Part shown: one piece after another, positions 50,519 through 60,277 of the stretch
Numbering within the stretch: the stretch's first letter is position 1
How the letters are laid out: each line of letters starts with the position of its first letter
Source: Armatimonadota bacterium
Lineage (GTDB): Bacteria; Armatimonadota; Fimbriimonadia; Fimbriimonadales; Fimbriimonadaceae
Assembly (NCBI GenBank): GCA_018268375.1
Contig: JAFDWS010000006.1
Coordinates: 479,115-543,114 of the forward strand
DNA length: 64,000 nucleotides
Direction: 5' to 3'
The notes under the pieces: generated by a model
Database searches by the model: none
Seen by the model: the letters and a program-made list of their open reading frames with translations, nothing else
Told to the model about the DNA's origin: nothing
Made by a program: the position numbers and the translations under genes

Positions 50519-50719
50519 TTGGGCAGGATGAGTAGGGTGGTCGAAGACAACTCAGGCACGCGTTCGAACAATGGTCGTTGCACATGATCAGAGGACGCCT
50601 CTCGAACATATCTGCTTCCCTAATTCCAACATCAAAGCAGACTTTGTTCGAACCGTTGCGCCCATGCTGAGAGTCTGGTGGTGACAGCCAAGTGTCGTCA
50701 CGGGTGTATATTGGCTGCC

Positions 50720-51643
50720 ATGCAACCAATCGAAATTGGACTCGCCCTGGTTGCGGTGCCTGCGTGCAAGATTCGGCAATCGGACCTTGCCACCTGGGAA
50801 CAAATGGCCAAGGACGAGAATAGTCAGTACAACCTCTATTTCATCGTTAGGCAGCCGCGTGTGACCCTGATTCCAAAGGATGGCCCAAAAGGCACGACGG
50901 AGAGCTTGCTCCTGGCCATGCAGACTCCGACAGGGACGGAGCAAGAGGAAGTCGAGTTAAAGGTGCAGGGGGCTCCGGCCAACAGCTATTTTGTCAGCGA
51001 CCCGCCCCACTCAAAATTTCGATTGATTTCAAATGGAAAAACGTATCCAGACATAAATGTTGCCGATTACGCTCTAGGTGTGTTTGAAGAACTAAGTAAG
51101 CTTGAGTTGGTCTACGTGGGGCAAACGTTTGGCGAAGACGGTGAACGAACTATCCAGCAACGATTAGAACAACACGCAACATTTCAAAAAATCCTCGCGG
51201 ACACGAGCGAAAATGCTCCGCACTTAGAGGTTTGGATAATGCCTGTGAGACTGGTACCTTCTGGACTCGCTATGCTGCGAATTGGAAAGGATTCGGAGTC
51301 CGTGTCAGCTGAAGCGATATTGCGAATGTCCGAGTTTCTGCTAGAGTACAAGTTTCCAAGGAAAGAAGAGGTGAACCTTGGCGAAGCTGCTCTCATTCGA
51401 TACTTTCAACCGCGTTACAACATTAAGTTTAAGGCTAGTTTTCCGGACAAGAGCCACACGTCATATGCTACTGTATTTGCCGATGACTACAATTGTGTTG
51501 CGGCAGAAGTTGGGCTTGAAGGGACAGGTTATGAAATCTTTTCGGATGTGGTCGAACCATCCGCGCATCCTATTGCCGAGTTCCCCCTTATTGCCGATGA
51601 AGACCGTTTCCAGATGCTCGATGCTTCGACCTGGTCTCAGTAA
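50720..51643 (+). CDS. GIY-YIG-nuclease-like protein
   Basis: 307 residues from the ATG at 50720. The N-terminal ~125 residues are an unrecognised domain (LALVAVPACKIRQSDLATWEQM). Residues ~126-240 match the GIY-YIG layout: LVYVGQT (132-134 as the YxG core), then ERTIQQRLEQHATFQKIL with Arg148 and His152, and NLGEAALIRYFQPRYN with the metal-binding Glu222 and Asn234. Between R/H and Glu lies a ~65-residue insertion. The C-terminal part (about 240-307) is another unknown region. GIY-YIG domains are endonucleases in repair, homing or restriction. First gene of the cargo run; 131 bases separate it from the next gene. Lower G+C than its surroundings. Confidence 0.65.
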   Translation: MQPIEIGLALVAVPACKIRQSDLATWEQMAKDENSQYNLYFIVRQPRVTLIPKDGPKGTTESLLLAMQTPTGTEQEEVELKVQGAPANSYFVSDPPHSKFRLISNGKTYPDINVADYALGVFEELSKLELVYVGQTFGEDGERTIQQRLEQHATFQKILADTSENAPHLEVWIMPVRLVPSGLAMLRIGKDSESVSAEAILRMSEFLLEYKFPRKEEVNLGEAALIRYFQPRYNIKFKASFPDKSHTSYATVFADDYNCVAAEVGLEGTGYEIFSDVVEPSAHPIAEFPLIADEDRFQMLDASTWSQ

Positions 51644-51774
51644 GTCGGCTTCTCTTCGACTCTTGCCTGCGTTCCGCCATTGAAGGATCACGCTCCCATG
51701 ACAAGGTAACACATGTCTACCTTAGAATGGTAGACTTCTTGTTGGGCGCTGACCCAGCACGAGGACTATGGACT

Positions 51775-52818
51775 ATGTTTGAAAATCTGCTGAGAGAGCT
51801 TCGAAAATTTGAGCATGGCGTGCGAATCGAAGTTCGGGTCGAGACCGACGAGAAGGGCTTCCTCGACCGAAAATGCCCGCATGAAAACTGTGGGGAGCAT
51901 TTCAAGGTCCTGCTTAAGGACTGGAAAGACAAGGTGCCTGACGCGAAGGCGTACTGCCCGATCTGTGGCGGTAGTGCTCGTAGCACTGAGTGGAACACTC
52001 CTGAGCAGGAGCGATCCTTCTCCGATCAGGCGCACAACCATGTCTCGCAGCTCATCGCGGATGCGAACGAGAAAGACGTTAGCGCGTTCAATTCAAGGCA
52101 ACCTTCTGGGGGGTTCATATCTATGCGGATGGAGCATAGGAGAGGGTTGCTCCTTCCGACACTTCCAAGTCGGGCTAGAGATGCCTTTGAACAGGAGTTC
52201 CAATGTGAACAGTGTGCTTGCCAATACTCTTCCGTTGGGGCAGCATTCTTTTGCCCAGCGTGCGGCCACAATTCGGCTGGCTCCCAGTACTGGGCCGCTC
52301 TTGAGGCCGTTCGCAAGCTCTTGGACGGAGTCGAGGAACTTAGAGCCCACCTGGAGCAGTCGGTCGGTCGCGACGGTGCCCGCGACATCGTCCGCCTGTT
52401 GGTCGAGAACACTGCCACAAAACTCGTTGGATCATTCCAGCGGTTTGCAGAGGTCAGATACTCTGAAATTGCAGGCCAGATTCCTAGACGAAACGTCTTT
52501 CAAGGGGTCGCAGCTGGATCTGACCTCTGGCTCGCAGTGACGGGTTCCAGCTACGAATCCCTCATTGGCCCAACTGACCTTGCAACCATTTCGCGCTTAT
52601 TCCAGCAACGACACCTGTTCGCTCATCGAGACGGCATCGTTGACCAGGATTATGTCGACCGCTCCGGCGACCGCAGGTTCTCACCGGGGCAACGGCTCAT
52701 AGTAAGTGTTGACGAGGTACGTCGTGTTCTGGATGTCCTCGACCGCCTTGCGCGGGGGATGAGCAATGGGCCCGAAAATGCGAATTCCGGGCACGACCCG
52801 TCCTTACCTCTAACATGA
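51775..52818 (+). CDS. Zinc-ribbon protein with C-terminal HEPN-like RX4H motif
   Basis: 347 residues from the ATG at 51775, with GAGGA nine bases upstream; an in-frame ATG at 51727 lies without such a site. Two cysteine clusters: CPHENCG...CPICGG (34, 39, 61, 64) and CEQC...CPACGHN (144, 147, 160, 163), two zinc ribbons. Residues ~175-335 are helical and contain LFQQRHLFAHRDG, that is Arg279-x4-His284, the active-site pattern of HEPN RNases, within the common RHxxxHxxG-type stretch. Such proteins cut RNA in toxin-antitoxin and abortive-infection systems. The gene overlaps the next by four bases (ATGA). Function is inferred, not shown. Confidence 0.62.
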   Translation: MFENLLRELRKFEHGVRIEVRVETDEKGFLDRKCPHENCGEHFKVLLKDWKDKVPDAKAYCPICGGSARSTEWNTPEQERSFSDQAHNHVSQLIADANEKDVSAFNSRQPSGGFISMRMEHRRGLLLPTLPSRARDAFEQEFQCEQCACQYSSVGAAFFCPACGHNSAGSQYWAALEAVRKLLDGVEELRAHLEQSVGRDGARDIVRLLVENTATKLVGSFQRFAEVRYSEIAGQIPRRNVFQGVAAGSDLWLAVTGSSYESLIGPTDLATISRLFQQRHLFAHRDGIVDQDYVDRSGDRRFSPGQRLIVSVDEVRRVLDVLDRLARGMSNGPENANSGHDPSLPLT

Positions 52819-53804
52819 TTGATCAAAAGCGACGCATCGCATTGGCTGCGGCGGCCCTCAGGCGAGAAGAGGAGCGGCTTCGAGACAATGTCAACCACGG
52901 GCTCATGGAGGAGCATTTGGGCAAGGATCAAGCCCTCTTCAACCGAGTTTGCGCCGTTATGGACAATGTTGGCGACACCACGCTGGCGCTCGCTCACCTG
53001 CCAAATAGTGGTGGCGAGGAAAAGGGAATGGCCTACCTGGTGACACATGGAGCCTTTCAGAGCATGGAAATCCTTGTGAGTGCATGCCGACTCATCGGTG
53101 CTGACCTTGGAGTGTCGTACTCGAAGGAACTCGACGCGGAGATCGACAGGATCAAGGACGTGCGAGTTCGGGTGACGGGCCATCCCTACGACTTCAAGAG
53201 CAACAAGAAGACCGGGCGCAGAGCCGGCACTAGCGGCATCAGTCGGATCACCCTTGGTATTAGCGGGTTTAGCCTTCACGAATGGACCGAGGACGGTAAA
53301 TGCATGATCACCGGGGTCAGCACGTTCGACTATGCAGTTAAGAGTCTGAGGATCGCACGCCGCTGCCTCCGATATGTCAATGAAGCGCTCTCAGTCCGTG
53401 TCAAAGACTTAGAACGAGAGTGGGTTGCTCGCCCACTTTATGACCATGTAGCGCAGCTCACCTATTGGTGCGGCAAGCTCAACGAGGCCGTGCGTACCGG
53501 AGCCGCGCCCGTTGGCATCCTGCAAACCATCGAGGAAACTTTGGTGCAACTTCGTGCTGACAAGCGCGTGGCAGGCGGAAATGGTGAGGGGCTCAGATAC
53601 CACCTGGACTTCACAGACGAGGCGATTCGCCTGCTCAAGTGCGCATGGAGCGACCCTCAGCAACCGTCAGCGGATCTGCAGCAGGAGCGTGTAAATTCTC
53701 GGTTTCTTGCCGACCAATGTAACGACATCGTGTCCGCGTGCCAAAGTCTTGACCGGGCATTTGACCCTGATGCGGGTCTGCCGGTTGTACTGGTCGCAGA
53801 CTAA
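52815..53804 (+). CDS. HEPN-like helical protein, partner of the preceding gene
   Basis: 329 residues, all-helical, cytoplasmic. Residues 109-123 read EIDRIKDVRVRVTGHP: Arg117-x5-His123 in the context (I/L)(R/K)DxRxxxxGHP that recurs in HEPN-fold proteins. The stop of the previous gene and this ATG overlap, so the two are made in fixed proportion. I do not recognise a family. A second possibility is that it is an antitoxin-like or inactive HEPN relative. It is separated from the DpdA-like gene by 61 bases. Confidence 0.5.
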   Translation: MIDQKRRIALAAAALRREEERLRDNVNHGLMEEHLGKDQALFNRVCAVMDNVGDTTLALAHLPNSGGEEKGMAYLVTHGAFQSMEILVSACRLIGADLGVSYSKELDAEIDRIKDVRVRVTGHPYDFKSNKKTGRRAGTSGISRITLGISGFSLHEWTEDGKCMITGVSTFDYAVKSLRIARRCLRYVNEALSVRVKDLEREWVARPLYDHVAQLTYWCGKLNEAVRTGAAPVGILQTIEETLVQLRADKRVAGGNGEGLRYHLDFTDEAIRLLKCAWSDPQQPSADLQQERVNSRFLADQCNDIVSACQSLDRAFDPDAGLPVVLVAD

Positions 53805-53865: not shown

Positions 53866-55566
53866 TTGAAGCGAGTGAGCAGGCAGTTGCTGGTGCTCGG
53901 ATGTTCCCAGACGAAGCGCGAGACGCCAGGGGAACTCCCGGCGATAGACAGATATGACGGGCCCCCGTACCGAGTTCTGAGAGGGTTCCTGCGGCATCGT
54001 GCCTGGCCTCAGGATTTGTCCGTGGCGATCCTTTCGGCGGAGCACGGTCTTTTCGGTGGACTCAAACCAATCGCGCACTACGACCAACGGATGAACGCTG
54101 CGGGCGTGCTCAAACATAAGGACACCTGCCGAACGACCTTAGCTGCCTGGTCCAAGTCACATTCCAGCATCCATTTTTCACTCGGGAAGGATTACCTGCC
54201 CGCTGTAAAGGACTCCATCGAGCACGATTTGAAGGGTAAAGCCGAGGTCTTTGAGGGACCGATTGGCATGAAACTTCACCAAATCAAAGGTTTTCTGGAA
54301 TCTACGAAGTCGCCACATAGATCAAAGCCAACTGTAGTTCCCGGTGCAGGAAAGATTACATATTTCCTGCCCGACTGGGACGACCTTCTTGACGGTGATT
54401 TTGATTTCGCAAACGATTCCTTTTCCGGCTCTTCGAGAAGCCTGAGACATGATCAGCATTGCTGCATTCTGATGAAGCCGAAACGGATGTGCGACGGGGT
54501 CTTGGTTAGCCTTGCACAGCACGTAACATCCAAGGGTCCCCTTCGACGCATCATCGGCACCGAGGAAGGCTCTCTTGCACCTAGGCACCTCAGAAACCAA
54601 TTTGGCCTTCAGGATGACCAATGGCTTTTCGGAGATTGCGGTGCCTTCAGCTACCTCAACGAGGATCGGCCAGCAATTGAAGTCGAACAGGCAGTTGCCC
54701 TCTACGAACTTCATGGATTCGACTTTGGTGCCTCAGTGGATCACATTCCGGTCAAGGCTGTGGTGCGCGACGGCAAGTCCATCGATTTGACCGAAGAGCA
54801 GCGGCAGGAGCGTGTCAATACGACCAAGAGGAATGCGGAGCGCTTCCTAGGCTTGGTTAGGTCGCGGAACCTCGGCTTCACTCCGGTAGGAACGATCCAG
54901 GCGCTCAGCCCATCGGCTTACGGTGAAACCGTCCGACACTACTGCGACCTGGGCTACGAGCATATCGCCGTCGGTGGTCTGGTGCCGCTACAAGATTCGC
55001 TTGTTGAGCAAATCGTGACAGCGGTCACTGCTGCAGCAAATGACATGAAGAGCCGCCCCTGGATTCACTTATTTGGCGTGTTCCGACCGAAACTCCAATC
55101 GAAGTTCCGCGAGCTGGGAGTAGACAGTTTCGACAGCGCAACCTATTTCAGAAAGGCGTGGCTCCGGTCGGACCAAAACTATCTCGCAGCCAATGGGAAG
55201 TGGTATTCGGCCCTTCGTATTCCAATGACCAGTGATGGCAGGACGCGGAAGAAACTCGAGGCAAATGGAGCCAACATCATCGAACTGGAGCTCGAAGAAG
55301 CACACGTACTGAAGCTATTATCGGAATTTGAAAGTGGAGGGGTCGCAGTTGATACCGTGGTCGAAGCGCTCCTTTCGTATGATGAGCACCTGACAAGGTC
55401 AAGTGAGTCGAGGTCGCTTCGTGACAAATACCGCAAGACGCTTGAAGACCGACCGTGGGAGGATTGTGACTGCCCGTTTTGTTCGAAGGCGGGGATTCAC
55501 GTCCTCGTATTTCGCGGAGCAAATCGAAACAAACGACGTGGTGCGCATAACACACTCATGCTCTAA
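53866..55566 (+). CDS. DpdA-like tRNA-guanine-transglycosylase fold protein with N-terminal YaaA/DUF6884-like domain
   Basis: 566 residues (TTG at 53866; GTG at 53875 is an alternative). N-terminal ~130 residues: LVLGCSQTKRE, PAIDRYDGPPYRVLRG, VAILSAEHGLFG, HYDQRM, as in DUF6884/YaaA-like domains. From ~250 the protein follows the DpdA pattern, a TGT relative that exchanges a base in DNA for preQ0: FGDCGAFSY (Asp257), DFGASVDHI, LGFTPVGTIQ, YEHIAVGGLV, HLFGVFRP, SFDSATYFR (Asp423, nucleophile position) and the zinc site Cys534-x-Cys536-x2-Cys539 plus His561 in NKRRGAHN. All catalytic and zinc positions are thus kept. The protein ends 5 residues after the zinc His, maybe cut short by the adjoining recombinase remnant. 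No preQ0-synthesis or other dpd genes are nearby. Confidence 0.8.
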   Translation: MKRVSRQLLVLGCSQTKRETPGELPAIDRYDGPPYRVLRGFLRHRAWPQDLSVAILSAEHGLFGGLKPIAHYDQRMNAAGVLKHKDTCRTTLAAWSKSHSSIHFSLGKDYLPAVKDSIEHDLKGKAEVFEGPIGMKLHQIKGFLESTKSPHRSKPTVVPGAGKITYFLPDWDDLLDGDFDFANDSFSGSSRSLRHDQHCCILMKPKRMCDGVLVSLAQHVTSKGPLRRIIGTEEGSLAPRHLRNQFGLQDDQWLFGDCGAFSYLNEDRPAIEVEQAVALYELHGFDFGASVDHIPVKAVVRDGKSIDLTEEQRQERVNTTKRNAERFLGLVRSRNLGFTPVGTIQALSPSAYGETVRHYCDLGYEHIAVGGLVPLQDSLVEQIVTAVTAAANDMKSRPWIHLFGVFRPKLQSKFRELGVDSFDSATYFRKAWLRSDQNYLAANGKWYSALRIPMTSDGRTRKKLEANGANIIELELEEAHVLKLLSEFESGGVAVDTVVEALLSYDEHLTRSSESRSLRDKYRKTLEDRPWEDCDCPFCSKAGIHVLVFRGANRNKRRGAHNTLML

Positions 55567-56842
55567 GGTGGACCGCTTGTACCGAAACTTCGCCGACTAC
55601 GTGAAGGTGGACAGTCTCAAAGTCGAGCTGCACTTCGTGAAAGAGGGCATGGTCGTCTCCGAGTCCTCCAAGAGCCAAGACAAGTTCATGCACGGAATCC
55701 GTGTGCTGATGGCGAAGAACTATGTCGACAACCTGTCCGAGGAGATTCGCAAGGGCTTGGACGAGAAGGCCGCTCAAGGCATCTATCCGACCCATGCGCC
55801 GCTCGGCTATCTCAACTCGCTCGAGCCCGGTACTAGAAGGAAGATCATCGTGCCCGATCCGGCAAGAGCGGTGCTGGTGAAGGAACTGTTCGAGGTCTAC
55901 GGAAGCGGAGGCTCCTCGCTCGAGGTCTTGACCAAGCACGCTCAAAAGATTGGGCTGACCAGCAAGAAGGGACGGCCGTTGCCGCGGAGCGGCGTTGCCC
56001 AACTCCTGAAACACCCTGTTTACTGCGGCGTCGTCCGTTGGTCTGGAAAGGAGACGAAAGGAGTCCACGAACCTCTGGTCAGCCGCGACCTGTGGGAACA
56101 GTGCCAGGCAGTGATGTCTGGGCGCAAGAACAACAACAGCGGTTACGGTGTTAAAGACTTCGCTTACCGTGGCCTCGTCCGTTGCAAGTGTGGTGGCGTC
56201 ATGACCGGAGAAGTCAAGCAAGGGAAGTTCGTGTACTACCACTGCGCGGGCAGAAAGAAGCATGTCTGTGGTCAGCCGTTCGTGAGGGAAGAAAAACTGA
56301 CGGAGCAGTTCGCCGCGCGCCTCGACGAGATACTTCTCGACCCTTGTGACATGGAATGGCTCGTTTACGGATTGGACGAATTCACAGTAGACCGAACCGC
56401 GAGGCGCGATAACAGGGAGGCCGAGATAACGGCGGAGGTCGCCTCGCTCAAGGTTAGGCTCGAAACTCTCTACCTCGACAAACTCTCCGGCGACGTCAGT
56501 CCCGCGTTCTATTCAGAGACCCGCCAGAAGTGGGAAGCCAAGGTCACAGACCTTGAGCTTGAACTGGCCGCGCTCGACCGGGCAGAGGCGGTTGCAGGAT
56601 GGGAGGTCGCCCGGGTGCTCGAAGTGGCGTCCGAGGCATCGAGTAGGTTCAAAAGCCTGAATTCTGCCGAGCGCCGGACAGTCGTCGAAGAAGTGTGCTC
56701 GAACTGCCGATGGGAGGACGGCGAGCTAAAGATCGAATTCAATCCCCTTTGGGATTTGATGCTGAACGCTCTGGTGTCCAAACGATCCGATGCCGATCCC
56801 AAGGGGCGTCAAGCGGCGAAATCTGTAGATTGGTGGAGATGA
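55565..56842 (+). pseudogene. Large serine recombinase, N-terminal catalytic domain missing
   Basis: The recombinase similarity begins abruptly at KVDRLYRNFADYV (55565), which lies ~80 residues into a normal large serine recombinase, so the resolvase domain with the active-site Ser is absent. What remains is the E-helix region, the recombinase domain (GIYPTHAPLGYLN), the zinc beta-ribbon (RCKCGGVMTG...YHC...HVCGQP) and the coiled-coil motif (ITAEVASLKVRLETLYLDKL). The frame stays open upstream to 55403, but that part overlaps dpdA out of frame and is not recombinase-like. The remnant starts at the base where the DpdA-like gene ends, so a deletion or recombination joined the two. It should be inactive. 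Confidence 0.75.
56831..56840 (+). repeat. Third copy of the ten-base TGGTGGAGAT at the recombinase 3' end
   Basis: The last codons of the recombinase remnant (Trp-Trp-Arg-stop) are encoded by TGGTGGAGATGA. The first ten bases equal the start of both 39-bp repeats at 49762 and 50480. Large serine recombinase genes usually lie next to one attachment site, so this may be an att half-site. Confidence 0.35.
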
Positions 56843-56914: not shown

Positions 56915-58114
56915 ATGAAATTGAAAGCAGTGATGCCCCGCGATAGAAGCGCCAATCTTCGTTTCAATGAGCGTACCCAACGATGGGATTATTTGGTTCG
57001 GCTGGTACGCCCCGACGGTAGCCTATTTAGGCGCGCAGGATCGGCAGTCTCAGAAGCCGAGTCGCGCGAGAAACGCAACGCGGCCTATCGCGAATTCAAT
57101 AACGATCTTGGTGTGGCCAAAGAAGAGAAGAAGCGCACACGGCGCGAAGGTGCGAATGACCTTCGAGGATGGACCGAGCGGGTTATGCCACTAATCAGGC
57201 ACGACTGCGCCCCGACGACCTTCGAAGCCTATTGCCACAGTTTGGAGAACCACGTATTGCCAGCACTTGGGTTGCTCCCACTCGAAGAAGTGCGTTCACT
57301 GGTCATTACCGAGCACTTGCAGAAGTTGAGCAAGGAGTTGAGTCCTGGTGTCGCCTCGCAGGCCCGGTCAGCGCTGTCCAGAGTCTTGCAGATAGCCGCT
57401 TCGGACGGACGCATTCCAGCCAATCCGGTCTCAAGTGTTCGGATCGGTGCAAGAGAGCGAAAGCTCAACCGGATCGAACGAGCCAAAAGCGGCGAGACGG
57501 GCAAGCGTTGGCTATCCCTCAGCGAGGGAAAGCACCTGCTCGTCAAGTCCAAGGGCACAGCAGCCTATATGCCTATACTGCTTGGGCTACGTTTCGGCCT
57601 ACGCTCCGGCGAAGCTTTGGGCTTGCGCTGGAGCGATGTGGACATCGCTAAAGGCGTCATGAGGATACAACAGCAAGCGGTTTGTCTCAAGGGCGTTGCT
57701 CGCCAGATTGTGCCGCCAAAGAGTGCAGCCGGTGTCCGCGATATGCCGATCCCAACCGACATTCTTGAGGAACTCACCCTCTGCAAGGCAAATGCCGAGG
57801 CAACGGGAATCGAATGGGTCTGCGTCGATGCAGGCGGCGCGCCGTTGCATCCTAAGCATGTCTCGCGGATTATCAAGGATGCTGTCACAAGCGCAGGCTT
57901 TGACGGCTCTGACGGAAACGAAGTTCCAACTAGTCACGACTTCAGATCGAGTTACCTAAGTTGGCTAGCGAACCACGCGAACAATGGAGCCGGTGTAAAG
58001 CCGCACGTTTTAATCGCTCTGGCAGGACACACCGACATCAACGTGGCGATGACTTATTATGTCAAGGCAGGAGCGGAGGACTTAGCTTCGGCGGTAAATT
58101 CGTTGTCCTTATAG
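56915..58114 (+). CDS. Tyrosine recombinase/integrase
   Basis: 399 residues, intact. N-terminal arm-binding region (~1-80, basic), SAM-like core-binding domain (~84-175, TTFEAYCHSLENHVLPALG) and catalytic domain with Arg230 in FGLRSGEALGLRW, Lys269 in PPKSAAG, His341 and Arg344 in SHDFRSS, His372 in LAGHTD and Tyr381/382 in AMTYY. It should integrate the element into and excise it from the chromosome. The start is the ATG at 56915. It converges on the excisionase-like gene, with 8 bases between stops. Confidence 0.92.
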   Translation: MKLKAVMPRDRSANLRFNERTQRWDYLVRLVRPDGSLFRRAGSAVSEAESREKRNAAYREFNNDLGVAKEEKKRTRREGANDLRGWTERVMPLIRHDCAPTTFEAYCHSLENHVLPALGLLPLEEVRSLVITEHLQKLSKELSPGVASQARSALSRVLQIAASDGRIPANPVSSVRIGARERKLNRIERAKSGETGKRWLSLSEGKHLLVKSKGTAAYMPILLGLRFGLRSGEALGLRWSDVDIAKGVMRIQQQAVCLKGVARQIVPPKSAAGVRDMPIPTDILEELTLCKANAEATGIEWVCVDAGGAPLHPKHVSRIIKDAVTSAGFDGSDGNEVPTSHDFRSSYLSWLANHANNGAGVKPHVLIALAGHTDINVAMTYYVKAGAEDLASAVNSLSL

Positions 58115-59272: not shown

Positions 59273-60277
59273 TTACCCGGGCATGTCCGGCCCGGCTTGA
59301 TTTCGGTCCCGACGACTCTCCACATACTTCCGCCATCCGTCCCCGCCCGATGATTCATCGTTCAGAAACTCAAGGGAGCGGTCATAGAGACGCCCAAGGG
59401 CGACCGCCGCCCGGTCTCTCCACGTCTTGCCGAGGCCCTCTTGACGGACCTCTCCAGACCGTTCCACGTCTCGAATCGCCGGTAATACTACATTACGCAT
59501 TCTAACCCGGCGTGCGTTGCGCACCCTGTCAGGATCATGCAGCTTCCCTAACCGCTGCATATTAGTCGCGGAAACGCCGATTTTTGGTTCGGGAAGGCGG
59601 TCGATCCCCTGATCGGCCAGCGACCGGTGATCGACGCGCGACGCACTGCCAGCCGAGGCAAGTGCGTCATTTTCAGCTTTGGCCCAGGATTCGCGCCAAT
59701 GGTCAAGATCGCTTATCGCGCCCTTTCCCACAGCACCGCGCCCGTAGAATTTGCCGTCCGTGCTTGGCTTAAGCCCAAAGCCATGCTCATCCACGGGGCG
59801 TAGCGAACAAAGCACGTGCGCGTGCGGATTCTTGCCGTCCTTTGAGCGATGGACGGCAAAATCGACGACGAACCCCTTGGAAACTATCTCTTTGTTGCAC
59901 CACGTCTTCACCGCCTCAATCTGCTGGTTGAGACTAAGTTCGACCGGCAGCGCAATGACGAACTCGCGAGCAAGCTGAGAATCCTTGCGTTTCTCAACGC
60001 GCTCGATCTCGTTCCAGAGTTGCTGGCGCTTTTCTTTTGATTCAGGGGCTTGCAGCCAAACCGGAGCGTTATCGTTAGCAAGGATTTCCCGGTGTACTAC
60101 TTCTTGGCTACGCGAGCGATAATCGAACGTCTGCTCGATCCGCTCATCGCGTAGTCGTTCGCCAGCGCGGTACGCGGCTCTGGCGACCGCAGAAACCTGT
60201 TTGCCGGCAATTGCCTTGCCCGCCTTGTCTTTCGCCTGGCGGCAGATCAATTTTGCTTCTAGCCTATATAGGGCCAC
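59273..60277 (-). CDS. mobA: MOBQ-family relaxase (MobA/MobL)
   Basis: 334 residues. The relaxase cleaves one strand at oriT and leads the DNA to the recipient cell. Motif I Tyr36 lies in AAYRAG, and the metal-binding motif III has His143, His152 and His154 in FAVHRSKDGKNPHAHVL, the layout of MobA/MobL proteins. The C-terminal ~150 residues are helical and charged; no primase domain follows, unlike RSF1010 MobA. Its upstream region contains the oriT candidate at 60381, in the position normal for this family. Confidence 0.88.
   Translation of the reverse strand: MALYRLEAKLICRQAKDKAGKAIAGKQVSAVARAAYRAGERLRDERIEQTFDYRSRSQEVVHREILANDNAPVWLQAPESKEKRQQLWNEIERVEKRKDSQLAREFVIALPVELSLNQQIEAVKTWCNKEIVSKGFVVDFAVHRSKDGKNPHAHVLCSLRPVDEHGFGLKPSTDGKFYGRGAVGKGAISDLDHWRESWAKAENDALASAGSASRVDHRSLADQGIDRLPEPKIGVSATNMQRLGKLHDPDRVRNARRVRMRNVVLPAIRDVERSGEVRQEGLGKTWRDRAAVALGRLYDRSLEFLNDESSGGDGWRKYVESRRDRNQAGPDMPG

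Follow-up and report, generated by a model that had tools for sequence, protein, structure and literature searches.

The window analyzed here, meaning the whole 64,000-nucleotide stretch, carries a forward-strand gene in which a DUF6884 domain is joined to an apparent transglycosylase. It raises the questions of which nucleic acid this enzyme modifies, what the attached domain contributes, and with which partners the protein works. The mechanical open reading frame runs for 566 codons from TTG 53866 (53866-55566), but the dpdA fusion gene probably begins at GTG 53875 instead (53875..55566), because that is where the homology to the relative L002 starts (tblastn 53875-55569). The N-termini of the relatives read MSKQLL or similar in an alignment of 21 sequences.

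The two domains of the fusion protein

The larger part of the protein, residues 165-565 (54358..55560, forward strand), scores 319.5 bits against the NCBIfam equivalog model for DpdA, NF041059 (cut-off 200), and PADLOC DpdA matches the window protein with an E-value of 1.9e-89. The E-values (2.9e-95) exclude a chance match. The nearest solved protein is 7ui4, a DNA-guanine transglycosylase (E 9.9e-62). An AlphaFold2 model of the fusion, built from 21 natural sequences (pLDDT 87, pTM 0.86), compares to 7ui4 with a Z of 36.2 and 3.2 Å over 374 residues, versus a Z of about 22 to tRNA TGTs. By profile and predicted fold, this half is a DpdA, a DNA preQ0 insertase. The original prediction of a DpdA-type transglycosylase is borne out by the equivalog and PADLOC matches and by 7ui4 being closest in both sequence and fold, and the profile search placed residues 250-566 in DpdA rather than in some non-TGT family. 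The catalytic and zinc-site residues that it named are all there: D257 (GDCGAF), D423 (FDSATYF), C534/C536/C539 and H561 are invariant in 21 of 21 full-length sequences aligned. These motifs align with GDCGAF, SIDS, CECNIC and GFHN in 7ui4; the archaeosine TGT 1iq8 too has FDSAxY. The window protein differs from the family-invariant columns at four positions only, all of them conservative.

Reading the sequence alone, the original prediction held that nothing decided between tRNA and DNA as the substrate, and this part does not stand. We strongly favor DNA, on the strength of the match to the DpdA equivalog, the solved structure that comes nearest, and the helicase and nuclease genes that constantly neighbor the fusion (see below). 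A tRNA-modifying TGT bearing an accessory domain would have the TGT fold and zinc site in common with what we see. Set against it, the DpdA equivalog exceeds its cut-off, whereas tgt_general and TgtA fall far short of theirs (tRNA models TIGR00449, 26 versus 47.6 bits, and TIGR00432, 36 versus 350 bits), the closest structure is that of a DNA enzyme, and a DNA helicase and nuclease always adjoin. Model scores and structure comparison led us to reject a tRNA TGT identity, and we hold it to be very improbable. The fusion enzyme probably swaps DNA guanine for a 7-deazaguanine base.

The N-terminal part, residues 10-121 (53893..54228, forward strand), is a DUF6884, YaaA-like and DpdC-related domain as judged by Pfam, alignment and hhalign. 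The window copy scores 26 bits against Pfam DUF6884 (PF21818), which is below the 30-bit cut-off. The family motifs given for DUF6884 are CxxxK and LSAxxG (PMC11701544). Both are found here, as C13-K17 and S57-G64, and the invariant residues of the domain over the 21 sequences are C13, S14, K17, S57, G64, Y72, G107 and Y110. The CSxxK and LSAxxG motifs noticed from the sequence are thereby confirmed, and the predicted fusion to a DUF6884/YaaA-like domain is clear from these motifs and from profile comparison, even with the window copy under the Pfam cut-off. For the putative YaaA-like fold of the N-domain, a fold search with the full-length model returned a match list filled by TGTs.

Relation of this domain to DpdC is supported because a bona fide DpdC (L031:13857-14708, PADLOC E 6e-142) itself matches DUF6884 at 23.6 bits and because hhalign links them. 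The fusion N-domain aligns to DpdC directly with P 61% and E 8e-5, and to the N-domains of four fusions situated among or close to classical Dpd genes (L032, L033, L037, L042) with P 94%; those N-domains in turn align to DpdC with P 97%. Helicase and nuclease controls gave P below 0.5%. The PADLOC DpdC models do not match the window copy and match the relative L002 weakly (E 4e-4). The GATOR-GC paper gives DUF6884 as the dpdC domain, and dADG formation requires DpdC, which is reported to convert inserted preQ0 into ADG (PMC11888242). The original suggestion that the fused domain processes the base is strengthened, because DpdC, the maker of dADG, shares the DUF6884 domain; the processing itself is still presumed, and the chemistry may be identical. 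The N-domain could carry out a different chemistry or serve purely to bind DNA, because it has only about 155 residues and is nearer to generic stand-alone DUF6884 proteins (P 99.9%, its closest matches) than to DpdC (61%).

The two halves also occur as separate genes. In L021, the DUF6884 frame (39.4 bits) overlaps the DpdA frame by four bases, and on a Haladaptatus plasmid, a DUF6884 gene lies before a TGT gene. On a Shinella plasmid, a DUF6884 gene (L030:6838-8561) follows immediately on a PAPS-reductase-family gene and is itself followed by a ParB-like gene; several Shinella plasmids carry similar DUF6884 matches.

A cassette with exchangeable partners

The search that the original prediction proposed, for other proteins of this two-domain layout, was productive. 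Genome and viral collections yielded 20 complete relatives (L001-L020) at 48-65% identity, all 20 keeping both domains. No full-length fusion was found among deposited phages. The hosts are spread over many phyla and include Nitrospira, Pelotomaculum, Latescibacteria, SAR202 and other Dehalococcoidia, Planctomycetota, Acidimicrobiales, Thiosymbion, Ammonifex and Desulfobacterales, among others. In every one of the 20 loci, there is also a UvrD-type helicase of about 790 residues and a PD-(D/E)XK nuclease of 300-390 residues. The usual order of the cassette is fusion, helicase, nuclease, with the genes nearly touching. In L007, the helicase and nuclease are on the opposite strand and convergent with the fusion, and in L014, they are upstream of it. 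In the two Latescibacteria loci, a HerA ATPase and an unknown protein of 633-694 residues are inserted between fusion and helicase (L004:9451-13365; L006:9646-13370). The helicase reading frame is interrupted in L004 and L005, and elsewhere the helicase motifs are intact. D208 and K210 of the nuclease (a D-x-K motif) and four cysteines (C27, C364, C367 and C373) are invariant, and its structural model finds the Cas4-family ACE1, AddB and Dna2 as fold matches. The cassette nuclease is a Cas4/AddB-like Fe-S PD-(D/E)XK nuclease.

The remaining Dpd genes are absent from these surroundings. By tblastn, with control loci positive, there is no DpdB or separate DpdC around the 20 fusions or in the window, and DpdD-K gave no convincing match in the fusion loci, the only hits being weak, generic helicase ones in L008 and L054. 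QueC or QueD adjoins 6 of the 20 loci (L002, L003, L007, L009, L015 and L020). A conserved unknown protein of about 320 residues adjoins the cassette at L012:6976-7929, L013:14834-15913 and L016:6761-7723; the one in L012 matches nothing in Pfam or PADLOC.

Two types of helicase and nuclease, about 27% identical to each other, can be told apart: type A in 16 loci and type B in L003, L014, L017 and L020. Three pairs of relatives bear on how they move. The fusion gene is 87% identical in DNA between the Pelotomaculum loci L003 and L005, and the sequences cannot be aligned beyond it. Between the Thiosymbion loci L017 and L018, the fusion is 92% identical and is followed by B and A, respectively, and the same is seen at 69% identity in the Planctomycetota loci L020 and L015. 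In all three, the breakpoint coincides with the 3' end of dpdA or lies close to it, which is also where the window has its joint. In a tree of DpdA proteins, from which the Deinococcus L032 was left out, the cassette DpdAs cluster in a single group that is separated with a support of 1.00 from the classical DpdAs and the fusions of classical clusters, and type B is scattered inside that group. The writer stays constant while the helicase and nuclease are exchanged as a unit, as expected if the writer and the pair cooperate. Both types are present on one IMG/VR contig (IMGVR_UViG_3300006094_000039; L051/L052), where a stand-alone DUF6884 gene goes with one pair and a DpdA that is not fused goes with the other; the split-form L052 falls on the classical side of the 1.00 branch. 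The L003 genome has a second nuclease match, which is split between two neighboring frames.

The window copy, its joint and its island

In the window, no helicase- or nuclease-like gene is found. Instead, the native dpdA codons run into a serine recombinase coding sequence at 55564..55567 (blastn, unstranded), and the TAA stop is made at that joint. A genus-mate (L057) has an intact serine recombinase of 519 residues, to which the window is 82% identical over 1289 bases starting at 55565, and that position falls in the dpdA stop codon (55564-55566). What follows in the window is a recombinase pseudogene (55565..56842, forward strand) without the first ~94 codons, which encode the catalytic N-terminus. 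The C-terminal end of the window DpdA is evidently non-native, because the relatives extend about 5-25 residues beyond HNTLML, and because the joint at 55564/55565 supplies the stop codon. A deletion or insertion appears to have fused the dpdA end to about codon 95 of the recombinase, and thereby the stop codon was created and the last 5-25 residues of dpdA, the helicase and the nuclease were lost. In principle, the joint at 55565 may be an artifact of assembly. The missing recombinase N-terminus was not found by blastn in window positions 1-61000, L054 or L055.

The cognate nuclease is absent from the window's own genome by a profile model that was positive in 5 of 5 control genomes, and the only UvrD-type matches there are weak (at most 90 bits) and taken as housekeeping. 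We therefore rejected the idea that the partner genes reside elsewhere in the genome. Searches of that genome did not find a stand-alone DpdC or a DpdB, the DpdB search having been run without a positive control. The earlier reading was thus right about the enzyme and its fusion, while it overlooked the absence of the usual partner genes.

The window dpdA is on an acquired, mobilizable island, because the fusion is rare (in the family it occurs in 1 of 85 genomes, and in the phylum in 1 of 291), G+C drops from about 0.60 to 0.51-0.58 from about 49 kb onward, and the gene is followed by a tyrosine integrase (56915..58114, forward strand; PF00589), a MobQ-family relaxase (59273..60277, reverse strand; PF03389, NF041496) and a TraD/VirD4-like gene identified by sequence inspection. 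A supply of preQ0 is plausible because the host genome carries QueC and QueD-type genes elsewhere.

Three forward-strand genes upstream (50678..53804) encode a GIY-YIG/Eco29kI-like protein (PHROG 15714), a PADLOC PDC-M14A protein with a C-terminal, HEPN-like RxxxxH motif, and an unknown protein of 329 residues; the last two frames overlap by 4 bases. They are possibly a defense operon, and probably a separate module, because they are absent from the other dpdA-fusion loci. We rejected them as part of the system, as they are common to no relative. Right of the window (contig C9), there is a complete Hma defense system (HmaA, HmaB and HmaC; PADLOC E = 0) at L054:4290-14053, and the gene after it has weak REase_II matches.

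Proposed function and comparison with known systems

We propose, with a probability of about 0.6, that the gene encodes the writer, orphaned here, of a compact modification-restriction system based on 7-deazaguanine in DNA. The DpdA half would exchange DNA guanine for preQ0, using D423 as nucleophile, D257 as acid/base and CxCxxC...H as a structural zinc site. The DpdC-related DUF6884 half would act on the flipped base, most simply through hydration of the nitrile, giving the amide (dADG). One polypeptide would then stand in for both DpdA and DpdC, with no need of DpdB. In the intact loci, the UvrD-type helicase and Cas4/AddB-like nuclease would unwind and degrade unmarked DNA, distinguishing non-self from self; that they attack unmarked rather than marked DNA is our assumption. 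In the window, the loss of both at the joint would have left the writer orphaned and shortened at its C-terminus, on a mobilizable island.

The same gene content fits equally well if the fused enzyme puts its label on DNA that is invading or damaged, for the helicase and nuclease to degrade. In addition, the DUF6884 protein YfjM is among DNA-lesion interactors and has been modeled flipping a base (PMC11701544). The characterized Dpd systems point the other way, since there self DNA bears dPreQ0 and dADG as marks and DNA without the modification is restricted (PMC11888242; PMC12707154), and we consider a label on foreign DNA unlikely. An isolated writer without its nuclease, as in the window, fits a self mark and a foreign mark alike. 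A modification-only complex, in which the helicase opens DNA and the nuclease trims or repairs it with no restriction, would make sense of the missing DpdB by letting the helicase provide an ATP-driven step, and a similar reading has been given to a BREX-related TGT system (PMC12839542). A Cas4/AddB-like nuclease would be an odd subunit for such a complex, though; the helicase and nuclease are swapped as a pair while the writer stays; and on the IMG/VR contig, one pair persists next to a stand-alone DUF6884 gene with no DpdA adjoining it. We think such a complex quite unlikely.

For the window copy only, it has also to be asked whether it is a dead remnant with no current function, which is compatible with a writer of a modification-restriction system as the best explanation of the family. 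Its partners are lost, its C-terminal tail is replaced, the neighboring recombinase is a pseudogene, and it is the sole copy among 85 genomes of the family. Yet its frame is open, every catalytic residue is intact, and the few departures from family-invariant columns are conservative. We give the dead remnant somewhat less than an even chance; the window writer is either a solitary modifier, if active, or a decaying remnant.

Already known are DpdA, the Dpd systems, and DUF6884-DpdA fusions in annotated classical clusters. DNA-modification systems were reportedly surveyed by Iyer and colleagues in 2013. The literature searched, whose coverage is incomplete so that an earlier mention is possible, describes no DUF6884-DpdA with UvrD and PD-(D/E)XK partners. 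We see about an even chance that this is a previously undescribed, phylum-spanning three-gene immune system, in which a DpdB-free DpdC-like/DpdA writer of a 7-deazaguanine mark is coupled to an exchangeable, two-type UvrD helicase/Fe-S nuclease effector. If true, it would be among the smallest modification-restriction systems with a non-methyl DNA mark, with the writing and base-finishing steps in one protein and DpdB dispensed with. DUF6884, a family without an assigned function, would gain a testable chemistry, and effector modules would be seen to be exchanged behind a constant writer. Orphan writers like the window copy could account for 7-deazaguanine in genomes without dpd islands.

The nearest comparison is to the Dpd system itself (dpdA-K; S. 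Montevideo and other genomic islands), which likewise has DpdA, a DpdC-related domain, a link to preQ0 genes, helicase and nuclease partners and horizontal mobility. The cassette differs in having one fused writer, no DpdB and no DpdD-K, and in pairing a UvrD-type helicase with a Cas4-like nuclease, whereas the Dpd system has DpdE/F/J helicases and the PLD-type DpdK. Fusions that lie among or close to classical Dpd genes (Paenibacillus L033, Picosynechococcus L037, Allocoleopsis L042) have the same domain order, as does the divergent fusion of Deinococcus L032, but the classical-cluster fusions differ in their separate DpdA clade (1.00), longer N-domain and DpdE/F/J-type neighbors. These proteins are plasmid-borne and annotated as dpdA or DUF6884 (L033:7023-9092, L037:1074-3149, L042:753-2849, L032:6975-8945). 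YprA Dpd-like systems also combine 7-deazaguanine genes with a helicase and a nuclease, sometimes PD-(D/E)XK, but in the accessible part of their description, the helicases are of the YprA family, the nucleases are mostly PLD, and no UvrD-type/Cas4-like pair appears (PMC12458937). BREX-related capture (BRC) systems similarly recruit a TGT into a defense operon, but with HerA, PglZ, DUF6079 and GNAT and no DpdC-like domain (PMC12839542). AddAB and Gabija share a UvrD-type helicase with a nuclease partner, and AddB shares the Fe-S PD-(D/E)XK fold, but neither has a base-modifying enzyme, and the Gabija nuclease GajA is unrelated. Placed among these, the cassette looks like a compact and apparently undescribed variant of Dpd modification-restriction.
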